Shown in pieces: positions 4,745 to 28,784 of a DNA stretch of 32,639 nucleotides. Below the pieces are notes generated by a model. The model did not search any database. It saw nothing but the letters and a program-made list of their open reading frames with translations, and was not told the DNA's origin. Position numbers and translations under genes: made by a program. Source of the stretch: Sorangium cellulosum (GTDB lineage Bacteria; Myxococcota_A; Polyangia; Polyangiales; Polyangiaceae). The stretch covers positions 1-32,639 of the forward strand of contig DYPH01000069.1 of the NCBI GenBank assembly GCA_020720045.1, given 5' to 3'. Position 1 is the first letter of the stretch. Every line of letters begins with the position of its first letter.

Positions 4745-8875
<4,131 letters not shown>

Positions 8876-9049: not shown

Positions 9050-13309
<4,260 letters not shown>

Positions 13310-13436: not shown

Positions 13437-14726
13437 CTACTCGGGGACGCCTACGAGCGCCGCCCCCGCACGGGCGTAGTGGGAGATTCGTTCCGTGATT
13501 TCGCGCACATGCTCGTCGTTTGCCGGGTCGCCATCCTTCACGAAGTGGGTCTCCCGAACGACGATGCCGTCCCGGTCGACTTCAAGCCGATCGTGGTCGC
13601 CTCCATCGTCCTCATCAAGGACGCCCGGCCGGACCGGCGAGAGCTTCAACTCCCCGAATTTTACGACCGATTTTCCGTTCTCTTCCAAGAGATAGCCGTG
13701 CGTGGCGTAGGTGAATGGCGCGGCGTCGGGCGTGAACGCGACCGCGCGCAGCGACTCGCGGAGCCCAAGCTCGATGCCGAAAGCGGGCGCCCCCGGCAGT
13801 GCAACGACGTCTTTCGGCCCGATTTGCCGCTCCCAAACGCCAGCCTTCTTTTGGTAGGACGTGTACTCCCCCTCGGCGGCGCCGCGGCCCCCGCCGTAGA
13901 AGACCTCTCGCGGTTGACCATTTGCGTCATCGCGCTCGACGGCACTCTGCCATGTCGGATTGAATTCGTGGTCCTTTCCACGGAATTCAAACGTGAACAT
14001 CTGAGCGCCGCGCTCATTTTCTCCGTTTGTCGTCCCCTGGAAAGTCCGTCGTACCGCGAGGCCGACGGTCTGGGCGCCATCGCGAACCCTGTAAAAATGC
14101 AGGCTTGTCGTTACTTCGGGATCGGGGGCCGGCGCCCACTGGCTCGCGTCCCAGAGGCCTCGCGTGATGCGCGTCAGATCCCCTTCTGCGGCCCCCCCAA
14201 GAGTCACACAGTGTACGGAACGGCGGTCCCCTACGACTCCCGCCGCAGAAAGAACAAACGGCGCTTCATCCGCCGGCTTCACCGTGATCGAAAGGAAGAA
14301 GAAGACCCCTTCGCGCGCCGGCTCCACGCGGACGGTTGCACGCCCGCGCGCTTGCCCGACTTCACGAATAAATCCTGCCAAATAGGAAGGGAACGTCGCG
14401 TTCCCGTCTCGATATGCGCCACACATCGTCGGCACCGGCAGCGACGGCGAGAAGGTCGCGTGGAGGCCGGCGGGGTCGTGGCTCTCACGAATTGGCCCGT
14501 CGGACTCAAGCGCGGAGCGAAACGCGCCGTTGAAGAGCGAAAACGCAACCGGTGGCCGCGGGGTGAGCGGCACTACGGTTCGCAGCGCTCCGCTCGGCTC
14601 CTTGGCCGCGCCGGGAGGATTCGGCGCTGCAACCGTGGGCGGTTGCCCAGTCCGGGCAGGTCCCGTCGGGGGGACGCAGGCGGCTAGCACGAAAATTGAG
14701 AAAATTCCAAAGGATCGGCCCCTCAT
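13437..14726 (-). CDS. Hypothetical lipoprotein
   Basis: A 429-residue protein that I do not recognise. The N-terminus is a clear lipoprotein signal with a classic lipobox (LAAC, Cys17), so it should be processed by signal peptidase II and anchored in the envelope. A Pro/Ala/Gly-rich linker (about 18-45) follows, then a mixed alpha/beta region with no motif I can name. It is the second gene of a two-gene operon: its ATG overlaps the stop of the upstream protease gene in ATGA (14723-14726), implying translational coupling and perhaps a shared role in envelope protein quality or secretion. It is convergent with rpoC. Confidence 0.75.
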   Translation of the reverse strand: MRGRSFGIFSIFVLAACVPPTGPARTGQPPTVAAPNPPGAAKEPSGALRTVVPLTPRPPVAFSLFNGAFRSALESDGPIRESHDPAGLHATFSPSLPVPTMCGAYRDGNATFPSYLAGFIREVGQARGRATVRVEPAREGVFFFLSITVKPADEAPFVLSAAGVVGDRRSVHCVTLGGAAEGDLTRITRGLWDASQWAPAPDPEVTTSLHFYRVRDGAQTVGLAVRRTFQGTTNGENERGAQMFTFEFRGKDHEFNPTWQSAVERDDANGQPREVFYGGGRGAAEGEYTSYQKKAGVWERQIGPKDVVALPGAPAFGIELGLRESLRAVAFTPDAAPFTYATHGYLLEENGKSVVKFGELKLSPVRPGVLDEDDGGDHDRLEVDRDGIVVRETHFVKDGDPANDEHVREITERISHYARAGAALVGVPE

Positions 14727-16534
14727 TTTCCGCCTCCGAGGCTCTTCGGTTTCGCCGAGTCTCCGCTCGGCGCTGGTGAAATCCCGGTGAGCAGGTAGTG
14801 CCCGCGCTCCCAGCGGAACGTGAGCGTCCGGGGGGCCGTTAGCGTGGCGATCGTCACCGTCGGCGCGGCGACCGTTCCTCCGGCGCGCGCGACGCTCGCA
14901 CAGGTCTCTTCGGGGGCGACGCCCCCCGTATCGCTCAGCGACGCCGAAAGCCCCAAATAGGCGACCGTCTCAAAGGCCCGAGCCTCCTCCATTCCACGAA
15001 GTTTGACGACTTCGCCGAACCGATCGAGACCGACATAACCAAACGAAACCATAGCATCTTCTGCGATTCGGTCGTGTCGGCTCCGCCAGGTGTCGTAGCC
15101 GACGGTCGCCACGATATCGAGGCAGGCGACGCGGAGCGCCTCTTGAAGGAGCGCGGGGTCGCTCGGCGGCGCCGGATCGTCCCAATAGGCATGCGCGGTC
15201 GCTTCCGCGAGCGCCTCCCGCGGGATGGCAAACCCCGCATTTTCGCGGCTCGTCGCCTTCAGCGTATTCACGCCAACGAGGAGGCCCCGCTCGTCGAGGA
15301 GGGGCCCACCGCTGTTTCCAGGATCGATGGCGGCTGTATGTTGCACGTAATGGAGCGTCCGTCCGCCGCTGCGCTCCGTTACGTCACCGTTGGAAACTTT
15401 TCCGGTGGTAATTTGATAACTTGCGCGGCCACCGAGACCAGGAAATCCGACGGCAACAACCGCCGCGAGGTCGGGCAGGGGGGCATCGCTCAAGCGGACG
15501 CCGCTGCGATCGATGGGCGTCTCCGGCGCAAGCACCGCGAGATCGAAATCGGGATCGATGTACACTGCACGTGCGCGACCGAGGGACGTTCCGTGGCCAT
15601 CGGTGAGCGTGAAGGTCGCCCCCCCTTCGACGACGTGGCGATTCGTTACGACGACCGGGCTCGCCCCCACGGTCCCTCGCCCTGCGACGATGAAGCCGGA
15701 ACCGATCCACTCATTGGAGGCGCGTGTCCCGAGGTGGGGGGCGAGCTTGCGGAGCAGGCCGCCGCGCGCGGGGCCGCCATCGACGGCGATCGACACCGTA
15801 AGTGCCCGCGGATCTGGCGATTCTTCGCCGGTCCAGGTGCCCGCCCACGCGCGCGTGCAGCGACCGGATAGTGCCTCTTCGGGGGGCGCCGGGATCCGGC
15901 CTGCGACCGCCGTCTCAATCGACGCGAGCTGATTGTCGGCGGAAACTTGGCTGAGGAGCGCCTGCCTCGCTTGTATGTAGAGTGCACTAAATGCGGTCAC
16001 CCCGTTATGCGCCGCGAGGAACGCATCGAGGCGCGTCAGGCGATCGCCACTCTCCCGCTCCCCCTCATCGCCGATCGCCGCGCGCAGCTGCTCGGCCTCC
16101 GCGCAACGCTCGGTCCGTTCGCCGTGGCCGCAGCCTTGACGGAGCGCGTCCCGCACCGCCACGAGCGCCTTTTCGCCGGCCCCCCACACCCTGAGCGCCT
16201 CCGCGTTCGCCCCATCGGCCTCGGCGAGGTCTGCTTCGAGGGTCGCAAGGCCTGCGCAGTCTCCGGAGGTCACATCGCCGCCGCAGAGGGAAACGCGGTC
16301 CCGATGAACCCGCTCCCGAACCTCGGCCGCATAGGCGGCAACGTTCTGCCCGTGACCGGCCTTCCGTTCGCCGAAGCGCACGAAGGCGTGGGCACGGAGC
16401 TCGCTTCGAACCGCCGCCTCGTCGCAGCTCGCCCCCGTCGGCGCTTGCGCCGGTGGGGTGCATGCGGCGCCGGCGGCCAGCGCACCCAAAACCAAGAGAG
16501 ATGCAGACTGCACCTTGCGAACACGGAACACCAT
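14723..16534 (-). CDS. Trypsin-like (S1C/HtrA-type) serine protease, envelope-anchored
   Basis: A 603-residue exported protein. The signal peptide ends near Cys25 (AAGAAC), a possible but non-ideal lipobox. Residues about 35-200 look helical and charged, with no named domain. A chymotrypsin-fold protease occupies about 275-445. Catalytic His300 lies in VVTNRHVVEGG, Asp331 in IDPDFDLAVL and Ser408 in AIDPGNSGGPLL, the order and motifs of HtrA/DegP-like enzymes. No PDZ domain is seen; the C-terminal ~150 residues are unassigned. GAGGTGA lies 7 nt before the ATG on the minus strand. The gene overlaps the downstream lipoprotein gene by 4 nt. The substrate is unknown. Confidence 0.85.
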   Translation of the reverse strand: MVFRVRKVQSASLLVLGALAAGAACTPPAQAPTGASCDEAAVRSELRAHAFVRFGERKAGHGQNVAAYAAEVRERVHRDRVSLCGGDVTSGDCAGLATLEADLAEADGANAEALRVWGAGEKALVAVRDALRQGCGHGERTERCAEAEQLRAAIGDEGERESGDRLTRLDAFLAAHNGVTAFSALYIQARQALLSQVSADNQLASIETAVAGRIPAPPEEALSGRCTRAWAGTWTGEESPDPRALTVSIAVDGGPARGGLLRKLAPHLGTRASNEWIGSGFIVAGRGTVGASPVVVTNRHVVEGGATFTLTDGHGTSLGRARAVYIDPDFDLAVLAPETPIDRSGVRLSDAPLPDLAAVVAVGFPGLGGRASYQITTGKVSNGDVTERSGGRTLHYVQHTAAIDPGNSGGPLLDERGLLVGVNTLKATSRENAGFAIPREALAEATAHAYWDDPAPPSDPALLQEALRVACLDIVATVGYDTWRSRHDRIAEDAMVSFGYVGLDRFGEVVKLRGMEEARAFETVAYLGLSASLSDTGGVAPEETCASVARAGGTVAAPTVTIATLTAPRTLTFRWERGHYLLTGISPAPSGDSAKPKSLGGGK

Positions 16535-17613: not shown

Positions 17614-18231
17614 CTACAGCGTCGTCCCCGGCCGGTAGCGTCGTCGCCCCCATTCGCCGAGCACCATGCCGACGGTGATGGCGACGGGGAACGAGTTGTT
17701 CACGCCGAACATCGGGAGCGCGACCGTTTGTGTGCATTGCGCAAGGAAATCGGCGGGGATCCCGTAGCGCTCACTGCCGAAGACGAAGACGACATCGTCG
17801 GGAATTTCTGCGACGCCGTAGAGATTCGTTGCTGCTGCAACTTTTTCGACGGCCCAGAGCGGGCGCCCTGCGCAGTGGCGGAGGAGCTCACTCTCGTCGG
17901 CGAGGCGAACGATCGTTTCGTACTTTTCCATGCCCATCGACGCCTTCTCGTAGAAGGGGGCGTCGCCGACGATCAGGATCTCGTCGACGAGAAAGCTGTG
18001 GGATACACGGATTGCGGCGCCGATCGCGAAGGGGTTTCCGAAGGAGAAAAGCGCGACGCGGATGCGGTTTCGTAGCGGCTTGAGGGCGGCGCGCACCGTC
18101 TCTGCTTCGTCGTCGATGGGCGGAAACAGCACGCGGCGAGGCTTACCGCTTCCGTCCGCGAAGCGGAAGACGGCCGCGGCGCGGCGGCCTGCATTGCGAG
18201 GGCGTCGCCCCCCGTGCGAGGGTGACGCCAT
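17614..18231 (-). CDS. SpoU/TrmH-family RNA 2'-O-methyltransferase
   Basis: A 205-residue SPOUT-fold methyltransferase. The three SpoU motifs are present: motif 1 NPFAIGAAIR (66-75), motif 2 VFVFGSERYGIP (148-159) and motif 3 ALPMFGVNNSFPVAITVG (171-188). These build the knotted SAM-binding site. The family methylates ribose 2'-OH in tRNA or rRNA; the substrate cannot be told here. The family's usual N-terminal L30e-like substrate domain is absent; only ~55 residues precede motif 1. The ATG at 18231 has GGAGG about 7 nt upstream on the minus strand. That ATG and the divergent + gene's ATG share one CATG. An upstream ATG at 18249 would add six residues. Confidence 0.88.
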   Translation of the reverse strand: MASPSHGGRRPRNAGRRAAAVFRFADGSGKPRRVLFPPIDDEAETVRAALKPLRNRIRVALFSFGNPFAIGAAIRVSHSFLVDEILIVGDAPFYEKASMGMEKYETIVRLADESELLRHCAGRPLWAVEKVAAATNLYGVAEIPDDVVFVFGSERYGIPADFLAQCTQTVALPMFGVNNSFPVAITVGMVLGEWGRRRYRPGTTL

Positions 18232-19045
18232 GGCTCGCCTCCACGGCATCTTCGGGCGCCCCTTTGTCGACCTCTCCCCCTACGTCGATACTGACGTATT
18301 TCCTGAAATTCACGAAGAAATTACCCGGGGACTCGTCGATGCGCCGGCGACCTACACCGGTGGGACGCTCAAGTGGATGGGCGTCGTCGCCCCCTGGCAG
18401 CTCGACGATGGGTACCTCGACGCGAACGACGTTCTCGCCGGACTCAACGCCAAGGAATTCGAGGCGTTCCTCGCCCTCGGGGATCAACCAGCAACCGATG
18501 AACGCACCTTCGGCGATGAGACCGAGCGCCCGTTCACCCACCGTCAAATGCGGTGGCTCGAACTCCGGCACCAGGTCTATTTCCCCTGGAAGACCTGCCA
18601 TCATTTCCTCGAAAATGACACCTGGGATGACAAACACTCAGGAAAGGGGAAGTCGTTTGATCCCGTCCTTGAGGAACTGTTTCCCAAGACCGTCCGATTT
18701 ATCAAGGATCTTCCGTTCCTCGAGATTGGTCGCGCGGTGCTCTTCGGGATTGCGCCGAACGACCACGCCCCCTTCCATCGGGACGCAGAGCCGGGCGTCG
18801 CGTTGAGTATTGCCCAGAGCATCAATTTCGTCCCCGGCTCTGGCAAGCAGCTCGTGCTCGCCAGCCCCGACGGTGCCGAGGAGTGCCCCATCGACGCGCC
18901 GATTTATTGGTTCAATGACATGGATTGGCACGGGGTCCCGGCGGCGCCGACCTTCCGCTACAGCATCCGCGTCGACGGCGCCTTCGACCATGACTTCCTC
19001 CGCCGCGTCGAAAGCGCGTGCCGCGAGGGCCGGAAGCGGCGATGA
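18230..19045 (+). CDS. 2OG-Fe(II) oxygenase-like protein (copy 1)
   Basis: A 271-residue protein of predicted double-stranded beta-helix fold. The iron ligands fit the 2-oxoglutarate oxygenase pattern: HxD at H183/D185 (PFHRDAEP), distal H234 (NDMDWHGV) and a basic 2OG-binding candidate R243 or R247 (TFRYSIRVDG). The N-terminal half (PFVDLSPY, VYFPWKTCHHF) is shared with the protein at 23161-23984, so the two are paralogues. GAGGGTGA (18217-18224) precedes the ATG at 18230; a longer upstream frame exists but runs inside the SpoU gene. The stop overlaps the next gene in ATGA, so it is co-transcribed with the sulfatase-like gene. The substrate is unknown. Confidence 0.75.
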   Translation: MARLHGIFGRPFVDLSPYVDTDVFPEIHEEITRGLVDAPATYTGGTLKWMGVVAPWQLDDGYLDANDVLAGLNAKEFEAFLALGDQPATDERTFGDETERPFTHRQMRWLELRHQVYFPWKTCHHFLENDTWDDKHSGKGKSFDPVLEELFPKTVRFIKDLPFLEIGRAVLFGIAPNDHAPFHRDAEPGVALSIAQSINFVPGSGKQLVLASPDGAEECPIDAPIYWFNDMDWHGVPAAPTFRYSIRVDGAFDHDFLRRVESACREGRKRR

Positions 19046-20910
19046 GCGGCTTCATCACGCGCGCCTTCGGCCCAGCGCCGCGAAAGCTCCTCGCGATCGC
19101 CGTCCCGACGGCGCTCGGAGTGCTGTTTGATGTCATCGTTCGTCATCCCCATTTTACCAATGTTGGGCGATTCATCCTCGTCTATGCACGTGGCATTGCT
19201 ATCAGCCTCGCCTTCTGGGCATTTGCGTTTTCGATCGTCGCGAAAATTCCGACAGGGCGCGCTCGTCGTATCGTCGTTCCCCTGTTTGTCGCGCTCGTCT
19301 TTCCGATTTGCTTTCTTACCTACGCGGTCCAGTGGCGCTATTTCCGCGAAGCCGATGCCTTCTTCCAGGCAAACACGCTGACGCTCGCCTGGCGTCAGCG
19401 CGACTCGCTCGCGACGGCGGCCCAGGGCCTCGGCGCGCTCTGGATCCTCGGCGCGTGCGTGGCGGCGGCGCTGACGGCGGGTGCCTACCAACTCGCGAAA
19501 AAGACCGCAGAAACCCTCAAACCGGCCGCCTTCCATGTGCCGCTCGCCGCCGTCGCGACGCTCGCCGTGATGCTCCCGTTTCCGGGGCCTTGGACGGGCG
19601 GCTTCGGCGTCCTCCCGCCCGACACAAGCGTGCTTCAGGCGGTCGCTGGCGCGGCGGTCGGCGGCGATCGTCCCCTCGGCATGGCGCTCCGCACGCCGCT
19701 CGTCACGCCGCCGCTCCCCCGAAGCGAAACGGCGACGCCGACAGTAATATTAATTATTTCCGAGAGTTTGCGGGCCGATTCCTTTCCGTCAAGCGGCGCG
19801 GGGAACCCCCTCGACGCCGTCATTCCTGCGCGCCTCTCGCTTACGCAGCTCCGCACGCCGGCCGCCTCCACGGTGATCGCGAGCCTCGCCATCGCCACCG
19901 GGCTTCCGCCAACCGTCAACTCGACGACCGCCCTCGAAGCGCCGCTCCTATTTGAGGTCGCGAAGAGCGCCGGCTACCGGACCGCCTACGTCGGCTCCCA
20001 GCTCGGAACCTTCCATAGTTTTTCGACCTTCCTACGGAATGCAGGCATTGATGAGCGGGTCTTCGCCGAAGATCTTACGAATCATCCCCACCCGGAATAC
20101 GGCGCCGAAGATCGTCTCGCCCTCGAACGCGCCTTCGCAACGCTTCGCGATCACCCGGAGCCGACGTTCCTCGTGATCCACCTCTCTTCGACCCACTACC
20201 CCTACCTCGTTCACGACGACCTCGCGCCCCATCAGCCGATGAGCACCGTCCCCGACCGGGCCCACAAGGAAGGGCTGTGGAACCGCTATAGAAACTCGAT
20301 TTTGCTGCAGGAACGCTCGCTTGCAGCGTTCTATAAGAGTCTCCAGACGCTGCCGCGCTTTGCCCATACAACGACGCTCTTCCTCTCCGATCATGGCGAG
20401 CAGTTCTTCGAGCATGGCGCCTTCTCTCATACGATCAATCTCTTTGAAGAAGAGCTACGCATCCCCGGTTTTGTCGTCGCTGGACCGGAAGGGATCTCCG
20501 CCGAACAAACCGGGAACCTCCGCGCGTGGAGTTCGCGCAATACCTACAGCCAAGACTTCCACGCCACGATCCTCGACCTCCTCGGCGTGTGGGACGTCCG
20601 TGACCGCATCCCGCTCGCGGTGCGCCGGGTTGGCCGCTCGCTCCTCCGCCCGCCGCCCTCTCAGGATGGCACCGCCGGGGAGCCGATCGTTCTTCTCAGC
20701 CATCAAAACGGTTTGTGGGAGGACGACAATCCCGCTTTTGGAGCCCTTCAATCGGGGATGAAGCTCCAGGGGCGCTTCCAGACCCCCTTCGCCTGCTTCG
20801 ATCGCACCGAGGACCCGGCCGAGGCGCATCCCCTCCCAGCCGTCGCCTGCCCGCCGGAACTTCTCGCCGCCGCCCGCAGCGCGTTCCCCTTCGTCCCCCG
20901 CGGCGACTAG
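19042..20910 (+). CDS. Membrane sulfatase / LTA-synthase-like alkaline phosphatase superfamily protein
   Basis: A 622-residue protein with about five N-terminal membrane segments (first ~190 residues) and a C-terminal alkaline-phosphatase-superfamily domain outside the membrane. VILIISESLRADSF (about 245-258) gives the first metal-binding acid. A Ser/Thr nucleophile is likely in RTPAASTVIASLA, and LSDHGEQFFEHGAFSH is the DHGE-type metal motif. This layout is that of lipoteichoic acid synthases, phosphoglycerol transferases and phosphoethanolamine transferases, which move head groups onto envelope glycans or lipids. The ATG at 19042 overlaps the oxygenase stop by 4 nt. The stop TAG shares a CTAG palindrome with the stop of the convergent ATP-grasp gene, leaving no room for a terminator. 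Confidence 0.85.
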   Translation: MSGFITRAFGPAPRKLLAIAVPTALGVLFDVIVRHPHFTNVGRFILVYARGIAISLAFWAFAFSIVAKIPTGRARRIVVPLFVALVFPICFLTYAVQWRYFREADAFFQANTLTLAWRQRDSLATAAQGLGALWILGACVAAALTAGAYQLAKKTAETLKPAAFHVPLAAVATLAVMLPFPGPWTGGFGVLPPDTSVLQAVAGAAVGGDRPLGMALRTPLVTPPLPRSETATPTVILIISESLRADSFPSSGAGNPLDAVIPARLSLTQLRTPAASTVIASLAIATGLPPTVNSTTALEAPLLFEVAKSAGYRTAYVGSQLGTFHSFSTFLRNAGIDERVFAEDLTNHPHPEYGAEDRLALERAFATLRDHPEPTFLVIHLSSTHYPYLVHDDLAPHQPMSTVPDRAHKEGLWNRYRNSILLQERSLAAFYKSLQTLPRFAHTTTLFLSDHGEQFFEHGAFSHTINLFEEELRIPGFVVAGPEGISAEQTGNLRAWSSRNTYSQDFHATILDLLGVWDVRDRIPLAVRRVGRSLLRPPPSQDGTAGEPIVLLSHQNGLWEDDNPAFGALQSGMKLQGRFQTPFACFDRTEDPAEAHPLPAVACPPELLAAARSAFPFVPRGD

Positions 20911-22160
20911 CCGGTCTCGACGAGGACGCCGGTGCTGAACGCGCGGTCGTCGGTCGCCCCCGCTTGGCGCCGCAGGTAGAGACCGCAGGCGCGCCCGGCA
21001 ACGAGGTAAAGTCCGAAATTCGTGGTCAATCCGTCCGCATCGACTGCCGCGCGGAAGGCCTGCTGGGCGACCCAACGGCGCGGTCGCGCGTGGGCGAGCG
21101 TCTCGGCGAAGAGCTCCTTCGAGACCTCCCGACCGACGACGACCTCCCCCCCTTCGGCACCAAAATCGCTTTTGAGCACCCACCCGTCCTTGTCGGCGCG
21201 GAGCTCGTCAAAGTCGCACGCCTCCAGCCGGAACGTCGGCGGAACGTAGCGGCGAATCGTCGCCTGGGTCTCCAGGGAAAAGTGGTCGAGGTGCTCCCAA
21301 AACCAGGCCATACTCCGTTTGTTCTGGGGAAGCATCGAGGCAAACGGATTCACGAAAGCGGCTTTGTTCTGCTCGATGGCGCGAGCGACCAATGCCAGTT
21401 CGCGGGTCAGCGGATCGCTGTCTTCGATCGGCTCATCGTCGAAAGCGCTCTCTCGCTCGCTCCACCAGTCGGTCTTGTAGTGGCGGATCGCGAGGGCGAT
21501 CGGGGTGCCGAAGAGGCGCAGCGTCCCGTCTTCGTCGCCGTCGAGGTTAAACGGGCTCCCGAGAACGACCGGGTGCCCGGCTGCCGCGAAGGCCTTTCGG
21601 TAGAGGCGGACGAGTGGAAGATCTTCGGTAAATTCAGTGGGATAAATGATGCCGACGGCGCCGCTTTCCGGCGCGAGCCGCTGGGCCGCTGCGACGTAGC
21701 GGGCGAGGAGCACCGCGTTGGGGTCGACGAAGCGCGCGTCGCCATGGTCCTCGCGGGCGAGGGCGCCCAGCTCGATGGCCTCCGCCTCCCCGGTCGGAGT
21801 ATCGGCATTGATCTCCGTCGTCACGAGCTCGAAATGGGGGGAATCCCCCAAAGAGAAAAGATCGACGCGAGCGATTCCGTGCCAGCGCGGGGCGTCGACG
21901 CGGGCGAGGGCAATTTGCAGCGGCGAAAGTCCGAGCCGTTCACCAAGGGTCGCGTCGTCGGCGGCAAGGGCCACCTGGGTGAACTCATTCCAGGCGGCCC
22001 CGAGCGCCTCGGCGGCGGTGTAGAGGGCGATCGCCTTCGCCTCCGGGAGCAGGTGCGGTTCTGGGGCAAAGCGCGGTTCGCCCTCGACCCAAGGATCCGT
22101 AATGATTCCACGCGCAACGAGGCGGTCGGCGAAGGTGTTGTAGGCGCTGGGGGCGCTCAT
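20907..22160 (-). CDS. Glutathionylspermidine-synthase-like ATP-grasp ligase
   Basis: A 417-residue ATP-grasp protein of the glutathionylspermidine synthase C-terminal type (YjfC-like, no amidase domain). Signatures are TTEINADTPTGEAEA (114-128), the NP...NK stretch (271-281, NPFASMLPQNK), and the nucleotide-binding loop VLKSDFGAEGGEVVVG (328-343), then RRWVAQQAF and GLYLVAGRACGLYLRR near the end. The family joins a carboxylate to an amine, using ATP through an acyl-phosphate. Known members couple glutathione to spermidine; most relatives have unknown substrates. It is second in an operon with a DUF350 membrane protein (ATGA overlap 22157-22160), a pairing also seen as yjfL/yjfC in E. coli. 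It probably makes an amide bond in a small molecule or peptide. Confidence 0.85.
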   Translation of the reverse strand: MSAPSAYNTFADRLVARGIITDPWVEGEPRFAPEPHLLPEAKAIALYTAAEALGAAWNEFTQVALAADDATLGERLGLSPLQIALARVDAPRWHGIARVDLFSLGDSPHFELVTTEINADTPTGEAEAIELGALAREDHGDARFVDPNAVLLARYVAAAQRLAPESGAVGIIYPTEFTEDLPLVRLYRKAFAAAGHPVVLGSPFNLDGDEDGTLRLFGTPIALAIRHYKTDWWSERESAFDDEPIEDSDPLTRELALVARAIEQNKAAFVNPFASMLPQNKRSMAWFWEHLDHFSLETQATIRRYVPPTFRLEACDFDELRADKDGWVLKSDFGAEGGEVVVGREVSKELFAETLAHARPRRWVAQQAFRAAVDADGLTTNFGLYLVAGRACGLYLRRQAGATDDRAFSTGVLVETG

Positions 22161-23059
22161 GGAAGCGCCGCCGTGAAGAGCACCGCACCGACGTAGCTCG
22201 CCGCTTCGAGGGCCGCCACGCCGACGGCCCGCTCGCCGCCGACCGCCTCATCGAGGTAGCCGCCCCGGAGCGTCGGCCGCTTTCCAAGGAGGAGCCCCTG
22301 GACGAAGAGCTGGCGGACGGGGAAGATCGCAAGGGCGGGAGCGAGCGACTTTCCGAAGTCGCTCAATGCCTCTTTCCAGGTCGTAAAATCGCCGTCGACG
22401 GCATCGGCAACGACGATCGAAACGGCGATGGTCAAGCCGGCGTAGCTCACAGCTGCTGCGACGTTGCCGCTCGCGATTTGCGAAGAGTCGTCATAGACGG
22501 TGAGGGCTCGGAAGAGGATGATTGCGCATTGAACGGCGACGAGCCCAAGGACTGCGAAGGGGAGGGAGGTCGCGAGTTCCGCGTAGCTCGTGCCGGAGAT
22601 GCTGCCAGCGACGACGAGCGCCGTACCGACCGCATGGCCCGCTTTCGCGAGGGCAACTGCTTCATTCCCTTTGGAAAGTTGTTCGTTCTGGCCGCTGTGC
22701 GTCCCGAGGAGGACGCGGCTGAAGGTCGCGTCGCCGGCGACCCAAAGGGCAAGCGACGCCAGGGCGGCGACGGTTGCGACGGCGAAGGCAGGCCGCTTTG
22801 CCTCCTCGGCGATCAAACAGGTTTCGCCGACGCGGGCCGCCAATACAAACGCTCCAAAGAGGCGCCCGCCCGCCACGAGGTGGGTGGCCGAAGGGGCCGG
22901 TCCGTTCGCGACCGCCAGCGAATTTACTGGGGGAGGCGTCGCGAGAGACGGGCCCACTTCAACGGAGGCTTCGGCCGGCTTTCCCGCGGTCGCGCGGAGG
23001 AACACCAAATAGCCGACGAGGACGGCAGCGACGAATGCTTGAGGGGCCAAGGCTTCCAC
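22157..23059 (-). CDS. DUF350-type multi-pass membrane protein
   Basis: A 300-residue integral membrane protein with roughly eight hydrophobic segments. It starts with an anchor at about 5-23, then a Pro/Ala-rich linker (24-60). Two or three DUF350-like units follow, each with an NxAxAxxxAG-type pattern: GNEAVALAKAGHAVGTALVV and GNVAAAVSYAGLTIAVSIVV, and possibly the last segment. The start is GTG at 23059, without a clear ribosome-binding site. It leads the operon that continues into the ATP-grasp gene. DUF350 proteins (E. coli YjfL) occur next to such ligases, but their function is not known. Transport or membrane anchoring of the ligase product is possible. Confidence 0.78.
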   Translation of the reverse strand: MEALAPQAFVAAVLVGYLVFLRATAGKPAEASVEVGPSLATPPPVNSLAVANGPAPSATHLVAGGRLFGAFVLAARVGETCLIAEEAKRPAFAVATVAALASLALWVAGDATFSRVLLGTHSGQNEQLSKGNEAVALAKAGHAVGTALVVAGSISGTSYAELATSLPFAVLGLVAVQCAIILFRALTVYDDSSQIASGNVAAAVSYAGLTIAVSIVVADAVDGDFTTWKEALSDFGKSLAPALAIFPVRQLFVQGLLLGKRPTLRGGYLDEAVGGERAVGVAALEAASYVGAVLFTAALP

Positions 23060-23160
23060 GGTGACGCGACGCTATCGCGATTCCTTCGCCGGTGGCGCTG
23101 GGAACGATCATCGCGAAGGGGACTCGGAGATCCACGCGCTTCGTGTAGCCTCACGCCGCT
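23060..23160. promoter_or_regulatory. Divergent promoter region between the DUF350 and oxygenase operons
   Basis: This 101-bp gap must hold the promoters of both operons. It contains a direct repeat of ATCGCGA (23074-23080 and 23110-23116, 36 bp apart) and a 7-bp inverted repeat CCTTCGC/GCGAAGG (23083-23089 with 23113-23119). No clear -35/-10 pair is visible. A shared regulator binding here is plausible but unproven. Confidence 0.35.
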
Positions 23161-23984
23161 ATGGCGGTTTCCGGCTGCGGCCCAGCACGCACCCCCTTCG
23201 TCGATCTTGCGCCGTTCCTCCCCCTCGACGGGCTCGCGGAGGTCCACGACGAGATCTGTCTCGCGCTCGCGCGCCTCCCGAGCGGCTTCACGGGAGGGTC
23301 CCATCGTAGCCTAGGGATTCTTCCGAAAAATCGAGAGGATGACGTCTTCGGGGACTACGGCGAGGTCTTCGCGACCCTCGACGACCAAGACCTCGCGACG
23401 CTCGCCAAGCTCGGCGATTCCCCCCGCTGGCGGGCCCCCTCGACGAGCTCCGCGCCGGGACCCTCGGCGAAGAGCGCGATCTGCCGCTCTCCTGGGCCCA
23501 GCAGCGGTGGCTCCTCGTTCGCCACCGCGTCTATTTCCCCTGGACGACCTTCCATGAGCTGATGCCGGTCGATCGCTGGGAGGACAAGGACGACCTCGCG
23601 GGGAAAGATTTCACCCGGGAGGCGAAGGCGTTTTTTCCGAAGACTCTCCGCTTCTTGCGTCGCCTGCCGCTCGTCGGGATCGGTCGTGCGTCGATCCTCG
23701 GGCTCGCCCCGTTCCACCACGGTACGGTCCACCGTGATGCCGATCCGGACGCGGAGCCGGCCGAGTTCATCATGCTCGTCCCGACGGCCGACAAGCAGCT
23801 TTTTGTCTGGGATGACGCCGCCGCGTGCGCCCATCCTGCTCCCAAGACGCATGCCCTCTGGTTCCACGACGGCGACTACCATGGCGTCGCAGCGGCCCCC
23901 TACTTCCGGTACAGTGTGCGGGTTGACGGCCCATTCAATGATGAATTTCGCCAAAAAATCGGTATCCAAGAGCCCCTCCGATGA
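23161..23984 (+). pseudogene. 2OG-Fe(II) oxygenase-like protein (copy 2), frameshifted
   Basis: Paralogue of the gene at 18230, in two frames. Frame A starts at ATG 23161 (PFVDLAPFLPL) and runs to about 23420. The rest of the protein lies in the frame that ends at 23984: LSWAQQRWLLVRHRVYFPWTTFHEL, then FFPKTLRFLRRLPLVGIGRAS, the HxD of VHRDADP, the distal His of GDYHGV and FRYSVRVDG. The switch falls at a run of six C (23420-23425); a seventh C would restore one 274-residue frame that aligns along its whole length with copy 1. All iron ligands are kept. It could be a real frameshift, a phase-variable tract or a sequencing error. The stop overlaps the next gene in ATGA. Confidence 0.8.
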
Positions 23985-25336
23985 GTGACTTCAAACGCGT
24001 ATTTTCTGTGGACGACCCTGCGATGCAGGGGGCTCAATGGTGGCAGGACAGCGTCGACGGAAACGTGGGCCTCACCCGTCGGACGACGCTCATCGCCCTC
24101 GGCGTCGGCGGAGGGACCTACCTCGCCTACCGGGCCATCGACGCCATCGCCTCCGACGACGCGCCGGAAACGACGCGCCTCGAAACGGCGCTTTCCATGC
24201 AGCGGCGCTTCGGGTGGAGCTTCGGCGCCCACGGATCGCCCCTGCGGACGCTCCCCTTCGCCGTGGCGGGGATCGCCGATGCAAAGACGGTGGGCCAGCT
24301 CGACTCGCCCCCCGCCGAGGGGTGGCTTCGCCCCTTCTACGCCGGAGTCCTTGCGGAAGCGCCGACGGCGATTCCGACGGAATCCTCCAATGAAGGGACG
24401 GAACCCCAAGCACTTGCAGGCTTGATTCCTGCGATTGTTCTGGACGGGATGGATGGCGCCTTTCGCGTAGGCGCCTGGTTCCCCGAGCACCTCCCCGGCG
24501 TGGGCGACGCCGCCCTCATCGTCGACCTCGTAGGCGTCGAGTCGGTCGCCTTCGCCGCTGGGGCCTGCGGGGCATATAGCCCCGTGTTTTGCTTCGGAAA
24601 TTGGCCCCACCCCAACGGTGTCGTCGACGCCCACGGAGTCCTTGCCGCGCTTGCCTACTTCCAGCCGCTCTTCCAATCGAGCACGCAGACGGCGCAGGCG
24701 CTTGGCGGGAAGCGTTCCCCGCTGTTCTGCCTCGATGGCCAGCGGCTTGCCCCCTACGACGGAGACTCCCTCACCTTTGACAACCGCTACCGGGTGACGC
24801 TTCCGACCGCAGAAGTCCTCAAGAAGAATGGAATTCGGACCGTCGTGCACGTCGTCGCGAATGCGTCAGAGCCGGTGCGTGAGGATCTGGTCGATCCCTT
24901 CGTCGCCTATGCGGCGGCCGGCCTTGTCGTGCGCCGCGTAGCGACCGCCGAGTTCCTACCGCCTGCGGGCGAGCTGAAGCTCACGAAAATAGGCCGGTTC
25001 GCCACCGCGACTCTCGAAGCGAGCGCCAAACAACCGAAGGTTTTCGGCGGGTTTGCCGACTTCTATCGGCGCTTCTCGCTCGCCTATCCGGACGTCATGC
25101 CGCCGGCGGCCGAATCGCTCGGCGCCCTTCGTCGCGTCGGTCCGCCGGTGGAAACGTTGGCCGATGCCCCGTTCGGCAGCGCCTACGCTTGGCGCCCCCC
25201 GGCGCGGGCCCTCGCGACGCCGCCTACGCAGATCGGCCTCGTGCCGGTCGTTCTCGTCGGTGCCGCCGTCGTCGGCGCAGAGATGGCCCGGCGTCGAGGG
25301 ACGTGGACGCGTGCTTCTGGAGGGTGGGGCGGATGA
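23981..25336 (+). CDS. Unknown membrane-anchored protein
   Basis: A 451-residue protein that I do not recognise. A hydrophobic segment at about 35-53 follows TRR (residues 32-34), so it may be a Tat-like or a plain N-terminal anchor. A second hydrophobic segment near the C-terminus (about 416-435) is followed by Arg-rich residues. The large middle part would lie outside the cytoplasm. It has six or so aromatic/Gly-rich stretches and few cysteines, and no catalytic motif I can name. Both ends overlap neighbours in ATGA (23981-23984 and 25333-25336), so it belongs to the same transcript as oxygenase copy 2 and the next gene and probably acts with them. Confidence 0.7.
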   Translation: MSDFKRVFSVDDPAMQGAQWWQDSVDGNVGLTRRTTLIALGVGGGTYLAYRAIDAIASDDAPETTRLETALSMQRRFGWSFGAHGSPLRTLPFAVAGIADAKTVGQLDSPPAEGWLRPFYAGVLAEAPTAIPTESSNEGTEPQALAGLIPAIVLDGMDGAFRVGAWFPEHLPGVGDAALIVDLVGVESVAFAAGACGAYSPVFCFGNWPHPNGVVDAHGVLAALAYFQPLFQSSTQTAQALGGKRSPLFCLDGQRLAPYDGDSLTFDNRYRVTLPTAEVLKKNGIRTVVHVVANASEPVREDLVDPFVAYAAAGLVVRRVATAEFLPPAGELKLTKIGRFATATLEASAKQPKVFGGFADFYRRFSLAYPDVMPPAAESLGALRRVGPPVETLADAPFGSAYAWRPPARALATPPTQIGLVPVVLVGAAVVGAEMARRRGTWTRASGGWGG

Positions 25337-25940
25337 GCACTTCAGAAATCTTCTTTGCGATCGAGATCGCCGTTCCGCTCGCCGGATCAAACGCAGGACT
25401 AGTTGGTTACTTTCGCTCGCTCGTTCACCATCACGGCGAGGGGCCGAGCCGCGCCGATAAGGCGAAGTTCTACACAGCAGTCGCAGGTTCGCTCTATACT
25501 CAATTGCCGAATACCCTGCGTGGTATTTGGGATTACTCCGACGACGTGAACGAGGCGAAACGCATGTACGCCGACTACACGAGCGTCCTCTCGACGCGCC
25601 GAGGGGCACGGACAACGCCGTCGCGCGTCGCGAATGGGGCGTCGGCTTCCGGGCGCCCGAGCTGCCGGGACAGCCGGTACTTACAGCAACCATTGCACTT
25701 TCTGTGGTCGAGGGGACGCCGGCTGCGCAGATGATCGCCCAGGCGTGTGGCGTCCCGAAGAACGATCTCTGGACGCGTCGAACCTTCGCGTCGCTGCTTC
25801 AGTTGATCCCGCGGATTCCGTTCTCTGCGGTACGGAGTGACGTCTTTTACGTGATTCCTGGCAGCCCCGATTGGGCATTGACGGAACCCGACCTGCTGAC
25901 ACCCGAGTTCTCCTACCTGCGATTGATTGAGAATCGCTAG
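25333..25940 (+). pseudogene. Unknown protein, frameshifted
   Basis: It starts at ATG 25333 (MSTSEIFFAIEIAVPLAGSN), overlapping the previous stop by 4 nt. It reads well to about 25602 (MYADYTSVLSTRR), then continues in the next frame from about 25605 (TDNAVARREWGVGFRAPEL...) to TAG 25940. Adding one G to the GGGG run at 25603-25606 would give a single frame of about 202 residues. No signal peptide is seen and I do not recognise the family. The break is the same kind (one base short in a homopolymer) as in oxygenase copy 2, 2.2 kb upstream. The TAG stop shares CTAG with the convergent gene's stop. Confidence 0.65.
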
Positions 25941-26713
25941 AACCAGCTCGTCCACGCCCCGGTCGTCGGATCTTGGAGGGCGTGGGCGGTGATCGAAATG
26001 CGCGGTCCGCCCCCGGAAAATGGGCGGATCTGGTGGAGGGTGCGGCTCGCGAAAAGAATCGCGTCGCCCGCTTCGTAGCGGGCATCGAGGGGGAGGATGC
26101 CCGGCGGGAGGGCGGGGGCGTCTTCCCCCGCGTAGTCGACCCCCCAGACGCGGAGTTCGCCGCCGATTTCTGGGGGGCGCAGCATCACCACGAGGGAGAG
26201 GGCCGCCGCGTTCGCGGTGTGGTGGATCTCTTGAAAGCCCTCGGTATCAAAGTGAATTACGCCGCCGGTCCGCGCGACGGGGCCGTCCTCCGGGAACACA
26301 TGCACGCCGGGGCCGCACCAGCCGGGGCGCGGGAGGACCGGCGCGCCGACGAGTTCACTGTAGAGTGCACGAATACGCGCCTGCATCCCGGGGAGGATCC
26401 GCTCGACGAGGGCATCCGAGGCGGCCGCTTCCCGGAAATAATGGCGGCTCCTGCCGGTCTCGAGGTGCGTGTAAAAGGCGCGTCCGAGGGCGAACTGATC
26501 GCCGCCGAAGTCCTTCGTCCAGTGGCGCTCGGCGTCCTCCACGGAAGCGGCCCATGCGCGCGCCTCCTCGGGCGTAAGCGCCGCGCGGCAGCGGACGATC
26601 CGATGCTTCGCGAGGAGGTTGAGCGCAGTTTCTTGGGGAAAATCCGCCGCTTGCGCGTGCGGATCGTGCCCCTTGTGCTCTCGTCGCTTCCAGTTACCCT
26701 CGCTCGCCACCAT
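25937..26713 (-). CDS. 2OG-Fe(II) oxygenase (third, different type)
   Basis: A 258-residue protein with a 2-oxoglutarate/Fe(II) oxygenase core: HxD at H154/D156 (GGVIHFDTEGF), distal H227 (RTLHQIRPF) and R238 (PRISITAH) as the 2OG-binding Arg. GGELRVW and EAGDAILF fit the usual strands before the distal His. It does not share the PFVD or VYFPW features of the two paralogues, so it is a separate lineage. The start is uncertain. ATG 26713 would share a CATG with the divergent DUF4139 gene, ATG 26800 would run into it, and the recognisable protein begins only near residue 25. No clear ribosome-binding site is seen. Confidence 0.75.
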   Translation of the reverse strand: MVASEGNWKRREHKGHDPHAQAADFPQETALNLLAKHRIVRCRAALTPEEARAWAASVEDAERHWTKDFGGDQFALGRAFYTHLETGRSRHYFREAAASDALVERILPGMQARIRALYSELVGAPVLPRPGWCGPGVHVFPEDGPVARTGGVIHFDTEGFQEIHHTANAAALSLVVMLRPPEIGGELRVWGVDYAGEDAPALPPGILPLDARYEAGDAILFASRTLHQIRPFSGGGPRISITAHALQDPTTGAWTSWF

Positions 26714-28784
26714 GCGCCGGATTTTGCCCTTCTTCGCTCTCGCCGCTTTCACGTCCTTCGGTGCGCTTGGCTGTGCCCGGGGGCCCGATGTCGGCTCCAA
26801 CCTGCCCCTTCAAAAGGTCGTCGTCTACCGGAACGGCATCGCCTACTTCGAGCGCGGCGGCAACGTCGACGAAGAGGAGATCCACTTTCACGTGAAAGAG
26901 GGGACGATCGGCGACTTCCTCGCGACGCTCGCCGTGATGGAAAAAGGGGGATCGAGCGTAAAATCGGCCGCTTTCCCGATCAGGGCCCCGGAGGACGTCC
27001 CCGAGTGTGATCCCTCCCCCGAGTACGAATACGTGCCGGTCACCAAGGAGAACGATTACCCGCGCCTCCGCCGCTGCACCGACGCCGAACGCCGCAAAAT
27101 CCGGGACGTCGTCCTCTCCCTCGACGGCAAAGAGCACGACCTCCGCGTAAGCTACGTGACCGAAGCGCCCGTCTGGCGCCCCTCCTACCGGCTCGTCGTC
27201 GGCGACAACGGGAAGGCGGAAATCCAGGCCTGGGGCATCGTCCAGAACCTCTCCGGCGAAGACTGGAAAGATGTTCATTTGACACTCGTTTCCGGCGCGC
27301 CGCTCGCCTTTCAAGCGACCCTCGGGACGCCGAGCATTCCCCAGCGACCGATCGTCAGCGATGAAGGGGAGGTCGTCTCTGCGGTGCCGACCGGCGAGAC
27401 GAGCCTCGCCCAGGCGGCCGACGCGGCCGCTCCCGCCGCGGTCCAGGCGCAGATGTTCGGCGGCGAAGTGGGCGATGCCTTCGGCGTCGGCGGGCTAGGC
27501 CTTTCCGGCACCGGCGAAGGCGGCGGCGGCATCGGCGACGGGATCGGGCAGGGGTTTGGTTCCGGCCACGGTCGCGCCGGCTCCAAGAAGGCCGCCGACT
27601 ATGACCTCGAAGAGGCGCCGAAGAACGAACGTCGCCGCGACGCCAGGCCGTCGCCGAAGAAGCCGGCGGGGGGTGGCTACAAGGTCGCTCGCGCCGAGTC
27701 TGCGCCGGTCGCTCCGCCGGCGCCCCCGTCGTTTGCCCCTTCAGCGCCGCGAAACCTTCGCAATTTGGCGGCGGTAGCGGCGAGCGGCGCGACGACCCAG
27801 TTCACGCTCCCGTACACGGTGACCGTGCCCGACAAGAGCGCCACGATGGTGCTCCTGCTGAACAAGAGCGTCGCCGGCCAGGCCGCTTGGCTCTTTGCGC
27901 CGGATGGCGGCGTCAGCGACTCCTACCGGCACCCGTTCCGCGTCGCCCGCTTCACGAACGAGTCGGGCGGCACCCTCGAGAAGGGGCCGATCGCCGTCTT
28001 TGAGAAGGGCTCGTTCCTCGGCCAGGGGCTCGTCGACCCGCTCCCGAACAGCGCGACTGCGAGCGTCCCCTTTGCGCTCGACCGCAGCATCGGTATCGAT
28101 AAGTCGAACAAGTACGAAGAGAAAGACGAGCGCGTCCTCCGCATCGAAGGCGGGGATCTCTGGCTCGAACGGGACGCAGTCACCCTCACGACCTACAAAG
28201 CCAAGAACGGCAGCGAGAAGGCGGCGAAGATCTACGTCAAGCACCCGCGGCAGAACGGCTCGCGCCTCGAAGGGGCCCCCGCGCAGACGGAAGACAACAC
28301 CGGCACCGGCAGCGCGCTCGTCCCCTTTGAAGTCGCCGCCGGCGCGACGAAGGAGCTCGTCGTCGATGAGCGCCGCAGCTTCGATCGCCAGGAGGGCTGG
28401 TTCTCGCCGGTCGCCAAGAGCGCCCTCGAGAAGCTCCTCACCGGCACCGCCCTCACCAGCGACGACAAGAGCAAGCTCGACGCGCTCCTCAAGCTCCGCG
28501 CCGAAATCCTTACGAAGCGCGACGAAGTGAGCGCCCTCGACGTGACCCTCCGCGACGTGGAGCAGCAGAGCGAGGAGCTCCGCCGGAACCTCGCCGCCAT
28601 CGAAAAGAACAAGCTCGCCGACAAACTCCGCGGGGAGCTCACCAAGCGCCTCTCCGAGCTCGCGACGAAGGGGCAGGAGTACGGAAAGCGGAAGGTCGAG
28701 ATCGACGCCAAGCTCGCTGAGCTCGACGTCCGCTTCCGCGACGGGACCCGCCAGTTCAAGTACGACAGCAAAAAGACGAAGTAG
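26712..28784 (+). CDS. DUF4139 lipoprotein with Gly-rich insert
   Basis: A 690-residue protein. The signal peptide ends at Cys21 (GALGC), probably a lipoprotein. Residues about 30-130 resemble the N-terminal part of DUF4139 proteins (VVVYRNGIAYFERGG). The typical core follows (APVWRPSYRLV, NLSGEDWKDVHLTLVSGAPL). An insert rich in Gly (about 247-290) and a basic, Pro-rich linker separate it from the second half (about 350-590), where the beta-rich DUF4139 fold resumes. The last ~90 residues are a charged coiled coil. The function of DUF4139 is unknown; the location suggests envelope structure. I chose the ATG at 26712 because it gives a clean signal peptide, although no ribosome-binding site is visible. 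A terminator follows at 28908. Confidence 0.85.
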   Translation: MRRILPFFALAAFTSFGALGCARGPDVGSNLPLQKVVVYRNGIAYFERGGNVDEEEIHFHVKEGTIGDFLATLAVMEKGGSSVKSAAFPIRAPEDVPECDPSPEYEYVPVTKENDYPRLRRCTDAERRKIRDVVLSLDGKEHDLRVSYVTEAPVWRPSYRLVVGDNGKAEIQAWGIVQNLSGEDWKDVHLTLVSGAPLAFQATLGTPSIPQRPIVSDEGEVVSAVPTGETSLAQAADAAAPAAVQAQMFGGEVGDAFGVGGLGLSGTGEGGGGIGDGIGQGFGSGHGRAGSKKAADYDLEEAPKNERRRDARPSPKKPAGGGYKVARAESAPVAPPAPPSFAPSAPRNLRNLAAVAASGATTQFTLPYTVTVPDKSATMVLLLNKSVAGQAAWLFAPDGGVSDSYRHPFRVARFTNESGGTLEKGPIAVFEKGSFLGQGLVDPLPNSATASVPFALDRSIGIDKSNKYEEKDERVLRIEGGDLWLERDAVTLTTYKAKNGSEKAAKIYVKHPRQNGSRLEGAPAQTEDNTGTGSALVPFEVAAGATKELVVDERRSFDRQEGWFSPVAKSALEKLLTGTALTSDDKSKLDALLKLRAEILTKRDEVSALDVTLRDVEQQSEELRRNLAAIEKNKLADKLRGELTKRLSELATKGQEYGKRKVEIDAKLAELDVRFRDGTRQFKYDSKKTK

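Follow-up and report, generated by a model that had tools for sequence, protein, structure and literature searches.

The DNA considered here is a window of 32,639 nucleotides from Sorangium cellulosum, which corresponds to contig 124 of a 6.34-Mb draft genome. It carries a gene module that comprises a DUF350 membrane protein, an ATP-grasp ligase of the YjfC/YgiC type, two proteins that we call P451 and P3, and the 2-oxoglutarate (2OG)-Fe(II) oxygenases OxyA, OxyB and OxyC. The first four constitute a core that is conserved over several phyla, and the oxygenases are an extension found mainly in Myxococcota. We think that this is a conserved module for the modification of envelope proteins, in which the ligase would conjugate a polyamine to the C-terminus of P451 and the oxygenases would modify P451 or the conjugate; this reading is put forward tentatively, as one whose chances we place somewhat below even.

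A scan of about 85,000 genomes with a P451 profile gave 80 loci, which span Myxococcota, Planctomycetota, Chlorobiota, Acidobacteriota, Ignavibacteria, Thermoanaerobaculia and Tectomicrobia/Entotheonella. Among the 50 loci with enough flanking DNA, P3 accompanies P451 in 46, the ligase in 42 and DUF350 in 37; as to the accessory genes, OxyB is present in 24, OxyC in 16, OxyA in 12, a Rieske oxygenase in 11, and the membrane transferase that follows OxyA in the window in 1. Nearly all the loci outside Myxococcota consist of the core without oxygenases, one locus in Thermoanaerobaculia (L109) having the full oxygenase set. Clustering of the neighbours around the 80 loci revealed no further gene shared across groups beyond the families named here. 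In the loci of relatives that were fetched, the ligase, DUF350, OxyB, P451, P3 and usually OxyC lie close together, and OxyA is sometimes 9–53 kb from the rest of the module. In 13 genomes no ligase was seen next to P451 at its locus; its presence elsewhere was predicted, and the search found it in 12.

The 331 genomes of Myxococcota were surveyed as well, with p-values (Fisher) that take no account of shared ancestry. Full-length P451 is present in all 25 ligase-positive genomes, with 27 of the 331 genomes being P451-positive (p = 1.4e-35) and pairs split over different contigs being included. OxyA/B was detected in 17 genomes, 14 of which are also P451-positive (p = 7e-15). Among 59 relatives of the source genome (Myxococcales and Polyangiaceae metagenome-assembled genomes (MAGs), Sorangium and Minicystis among others), OxyA/B occurs in 16 and P451 or a paralogue in 17, these being largely the same genomes. 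An earlier note on this DNA, made from the sequence alone, had staked its proposal of a system on co-occurrence beyond the DUF350/ligase pair, and the ligase, DUF350, P451, P3 and the oxygenases are indeed found together far above chance.

The ligase (417 residues, 20907–22160, minus strand) matches PF03738 (GSP_synth) with 50.1 bits against a gathering score of 29.3, and its profile matches YjfC (7UK6, E = 4.5e-4), YgiC (7UK8, E = 0.0058) and also E. coli Gss. Seven residues of Gss with catalytic and Mg/ATP roles (R316, D318, E330, N332, K498, K533 and R598), correspond to R98, D100, E116, N118, K281, K330 and R397 of the ligase, all seven being identical. In this protein Pfam finds only ATP-grasp families, with no N-terminal amidase domain. 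The DUF350 gene (22157–23059, minus strand), which codes for a multi-pass membrane protein of 300 residues, scores 64.7 bits with PF03994 against 26 and adjoins the ligase gene, the start being overlapped by 4 bp. Glutathionylspermidine synthetase amidates a C-terminal Gly. For E. coli YgiC and YjfC, a peptide-spermidine ligase activity has been reported (Pederick et al. 2023, cited in PMC12568646), and RefSeq product names likewise designate them as such ligases; the statement in the earlier note that YjfC has no settled function is thus out of date. A search for the window ligase on plasmids found none. A paralogous ligase is paired with a P451-like lipoprotein on contig 309 of the same genome (L062, 6325–8264) and also at L063, L064, L194 and L197; these pairs have tails of the type RGGFG/RSGFG...GG and no adjoining DUF350 or oxygenases, and the own-genome copy of the paralogous ligase (L062) looks incomplete.

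P451 (451 residues, 23981–25336, plus strand) and P3 (about 200 residues, soluble, 25333–25940, plus strand) have no match in Pfam or NCBIfam. Near the N-terminus of P451 two adjacent Arg residues precede a hydrophobic segment, and some relatives have a lipobox; a Rossmann-like core follows, for which the model gave no usable fold assignment (predicted local distance difference test score, pLDDT, 60.7; best Foldseek E 0.025; best Z 4.1). The C-terminal tail, residues 438–451 (RRGTWTRASGGWGG, encoded at 25292–25333, plus strand), is the proposed target of the ligase. The motif R-S-G-S-[FWY]-x-R followed by Gly residues is located in the last 32 residues of 69 of the 70 members and elsewhere in the protein in none of the 70, with 2.1 of 70 being expected from shuffled tails; the last residue is Gly in 53 of 70.

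Tails of this kind are also carried by other partners of such ligases. E. coli YjfM has the C-terminus ...SRGGYGRSSSARGHWGG, and YgiB has a TRGGFGES motif and the C-terminus SRSMGG. Comparable tails were found on DUF1190 proteins or unnamed lipoproteins by YjfC-type ligases in Rhizobium, Vibrio, Asticcacaulis, Roseomonas, Pseudomonas, Methylorubrum and Tsukamurella, and a further family of ligase partners in Myxococcota has the tail GGFG...GGGGG. One common tail rule is passed by 8 of 10 partners of other ligases and by 43 of 56 P451 proteins, whereas none of the controls, 64 annotated proteins from the neighbourhood and 179 other proteins of the module, passes it. The more distant ligases (e.g., L174–L177, Azospirillum, Arthrobacter) showed no tailed neighbour, and no DUF1190 was detected in the whole source genome by a search that gave matches in the controls E. 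coli and Caulobacter. As far as could be checked, the tail observation is new: no paper naming the YgiB/YjfM tails as ligase substrates was found, in a check that did not extend to Pederick et al. 2023. A third possible class of tailed partner, with GGFG...(Gly/Ser-rich) ends, was seen downstream of YjfC-type ligases at L168 (1794–2921), L169 (3532–4476), L170–L173, L180 and L182.

OxyA (271 residues, 18230–19045, plus strand) and OxyB (23161–23984, plus strand) are paralogues, matching at 46% over the C-terminal part of OxyB, and belong to a family for which 0 of 26 members matched Pfam at E ≤ 1. The HxD...H iron ligands and the 2OG-binding Arg (H183, D185, H234 and R247) are invariant in 56 sequences. 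The OxyA model made with these 56 sequences (pLDDT 93.9) is a double-stranded beta-helix, for which Foldseek gave 238 matches at E ≤ 0.001, the best 50 of the 238 being nearly all 2OG enzymes; structural alignment to 2OG oxygenases reaches a Z of up to 12.5 over 148 residues at 2.9 Å. Judged by this confident model, the fold is clearly that of a 2OG-Fe(II) oxygenase, which bears out an assignment that the earlier note had made without Pfam support. Searches of PDB sequences with P451, P3 and OxyA/B gave chance matches only. OxyC (287 residues, 25937–26800, minus strand, convergent with P3) matches PF13640 (2OG-FeII_Oxy_3) with 29.4 bits against a gathering score of 27. No significant score was obtained when the profiles of OxyA/B and OxyC were compared, although the HxD motif was aligned. 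In eight loci of relatives (including L067, 4734–6002, and L072, 5981–7120) the gene of a Rieske alpha-subunit adjoins OxyA; its closest structures are of the stachydrine-demethylase and carnitine-oxygenase type. The search for a Rieske gene in the own genome gave no match, although an empty search alone proves little; there, the transferase occupies the place after OxyA where relatives have the Rieske gene.

OxyB and P3 contain one frame change each, near 23434 and 25635, and both genes are open in the sister genome G001, in which the intact proteins have 274 and 202 residues. Since both changes fall in short single-base runs and are the only frame-breaking differences between the window and G001 within the module genes (10.6 kb, 93% identity), an assembly error is likely. 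The ratio of non-synonymous to synonymous substitution (dN/dS) between the two genomes is 0.01–0.13 for every gene, including each half of the broken OxyB and P3. Thus, OxyB and P3 are under purifying selection in both gene halves, and the breaks are either recent or assembly errors.

With regard to the arrangement of the genes, much of what the earlier note had described is found again. The minus-strand DUF350/ligase pair (PF03994, PF03738) does lie between two plus-strand operons, being separated from the OxyB/P451/P3 operon by a divergent intergenic region of 101 bp (23060–23160); each plus operon begins with a member of the same oxygenase family, followed by a membrane enzyme of the alkaline-phosphatase superfamily after OxyA and by the two proteins of unfamiliar type after OxyB. 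All the genes that it named are present, OxyB and P3 being frame-broken in the assembly. The end of the region had been set too early, at 25940, because OxyC, immediately next to P3, is part of the cluster; P451 and P3 as part of the core, the Rieske gene of relatives and the conserved tail had been missed too. Overlaps of 4 bp join OxyA to the transferase, the ligase to DUF350, OxyB to P451 (the OxyB stop overlapping the P451 start) and P451 to P3. The transferase (19042–20910, plus strand), which had been counted as part of the system, was rejected as a member: apart from the window, it accompanies oxyA in the sister genome alone, which also supplies the only one of the 80 loci that has it, and it is specific to the genus. 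Its sole level of match is the PF00884 superfamily (sulfatase, phosphoethanolamine transferase and lipoteichoic acid synthase), the lipoteichoic acid synthase equivalog giving 17 bits against a cut-off of 970. The region is flanked by a protein with a trypsin-like protease domain (14723–16534, minus strand) and a DUF4139 lipoprotein-like protein (26619–28784, plus strand), and two very large open reading frames lie upstream on the plus strand (4745–8875, 1376 residues, and 9050–13309, 1419 residues). At five other loci (L090, L094, L100, L101 and L161, some of them Labilithrix MAGs) OxyB-P451-P3 lies apart from the ligase, with additional conserved genes after P3, 2–5 kb downstream of P451.

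On the gene content, conservation, co-occurrence, oxygenase fold, catalytic residues and tail conservation described above we build a scheme in which the substrate, the identity of the amine, the order of the steps, the localization and the cellular role are inferred. That the ligase forms an amide and that the 2OG enzymes oxidize a substrate, as the earlier note suggested, is supported by the families, the catalytic residues and the predicted fold. As the ligase family amidates peptide C-termini and its neighbour is regularly an exported protein with a Gly-rich tail, the tail suggests itself as the substrate. At the expense of ATP, the cytoplasmic ligase would couple the C-terminal Gly carboxylate of P451 to an amine, a polyamine such as spermidine being the most likely candidate. 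P451 would be a signal-anchored or twin-arginine translocation (Tat)-type exported protein; if it is exported folded, the modification could come before export. DUF350 and P3 might act at the membrane as dedicated partners. In Myxococcota, OxyB, OxyA, OxyC and often the Rieske enzyme would oxidize P451 or its conjugate, with OxyB as the foremost candidate because its gene overlaps that of P451 and is nearly confined to P451 genomes. Hypusine, in which a spermidine-derived group on a protein becomes hydroxylated, may serve as a loose analogy.

Several points weigh against this scheme. The identity of the ligase to YjfC, YgiC and Gss is only 18–19%, and its putative link to the tail comes from sequences and gene context. 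Not all P451 proteins have Gly as the last residue, Ser, Ala or Leu taking its place in some, and 3 of the 17 OxyA/B genomes have no full-length P451. The tail rules were drawn up after the tails had been seen, so the controls within the protein and among neighbours weigh more than the shuffles. In an Acidobacteria locus (L162, 9905–11872) P451 appears to be fused to P3 in a single open frame, and the tail is degraded; unless this is a sequence error, the C-terminus of P451 would be buried there. Finally, if P451 were exported co-translationally, its C-terminus would be beyond the reach of a cytoplasmic ligase.

The most serious alternative, which we nevertheless consider doubtful, is a small-metabolite pathway, in which the ligase and the 2OG/Rieske enzymes would make a diffusible peptide- or acid-polyamine conjugate, and P451, P3 and DUF350 would bind, sense or transport it. 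The Rieske protein of relatives best matches enzymes acting on small amines, of the stachydrine-demethylase type and carnitine oxygenases. Moreover, the E-64 pathway employs both an Fe/2OG oxygenase and an ATP-grasp ligase, with YgiC/YjfC among the closest structural homologues of the latter (PMC12568646). However, outside Myxococcota most loci with P451 and the ligase lack oxygenases, no other biosynthetic gene recurred in the survey of neighbours, and the tail shared by partners of different families would be left unexplained. The earlier note had thought of an envelope component or a small metabolite; the tail favours protein modification at least as strongly as the second.

A complex for envelope stress or scaffolding appears unlikely to us. 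In such a case the tail would be a docking or sorting signal for DUF350 or the ligase, the polyamine conjugate would be an unrelated one, and the oxygenases would sense oxygen or the redox state. A link of DUF350 and SpermGS-type ATP-grasp genes to PspA/membrane-dynamics operons has been described (PMC11237479), but the window cluster lacks PspA, CesT/Tir and band-7, and over the 80 loci no gene recurred in the neighbour survey beyond the families named here. PHD2, an oxygen sensor, is among the fold neighbours of OxyA, although a fold resemblance gives no proof of function. That the genes are neighbours by chance, with DUF350 and the ligase alone being linked, is suggested by the changing positions of OxyA, the transferase and the Rieske gene, with OxyA being 29–53 kb away from OxyB in certain relatives, and holds for the transferase, but for the core and OxyB the co-occurrence statistics and the repeated adjacency in distant phyla refute it, so that we regard it as highly improbable overall.

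If the polyamination of P451 is extended to other tailed partners, a bolder and rather speculative proposal can be made, which we would not expect to hold in full: YjfC-type ligases might constitute a general bacterial pathway of C-terminal polyamination, with unrelated exported substrates having converged on, or sharing, an R-[GS]-G-[FYWS]...GG tail, to which Myxococcota would add 2OG and Rieske oxidation, so that hypusine, with its two steps, would have a counterpart in the bacterial envelope. Both DUF350 proteins and ligases of the YjfC/YgiC type occur widely, and their physiological role is not settled. Were the tail the substrate, the target of peptide-spermidine ligases would become testable in E. 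coli K-12 and in myxobacteria, and a new type of protein modification would be defined, in which envelope proteins are amidated with a polyamine at the C-terminus. The module also adds three families without a Pfam model, which are the 2OG oxygenase family of OxyA/B, P451 and P3.

The closest known systems are yjfIJKLMC and ygiBC of E. coli, which have in common with the module the ligase superfamily, a neighbouring DUF350 gene (yjf) and an adjacent exported partner with a Gly-rich tail. The partner is DUF1190 there and P451 here; P3 and the 2OG/Rieske oxygenases are present only here, whereas PspA, YjfK and YjfI are absent. E. coli Gss is likewise an ATP-grasp synthetase with the same catalytic residues, but the window ligase has no amidase domain and is not expected to use glutathione; YgiC itself is without Gss activity (Sui et al. 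2012, cited in PMC12506659). OxyA/B resemble PHD2, AspH and proline 3-hydroxylase in the double-stranded beta-helix and the HxD...H iron site, although at the sequence level they match no PDB chain or Pfam family. In the E-64 cluster an Fe/2OG oxygenase also works with an ATP-grasp amide ligase (PMC12568646), but this cluster is fungal, gives a small-molecule product and lacks DUF350 and a tailed envelope protein. Finally, the PSP-linked polyamine/ATP-grasp operons combine DUF350 with an ATP-grasp or spermine-synthase gene and a secreted partner, which may be DUF1190, DUF4247 or another lipoprotein (PMC11237479). P451, P3 and the oxygenases do not figure in these operons as described in the accessible part of that paper, and the module is thus a further form of the DUF350/ATP-grasp theme reported there.

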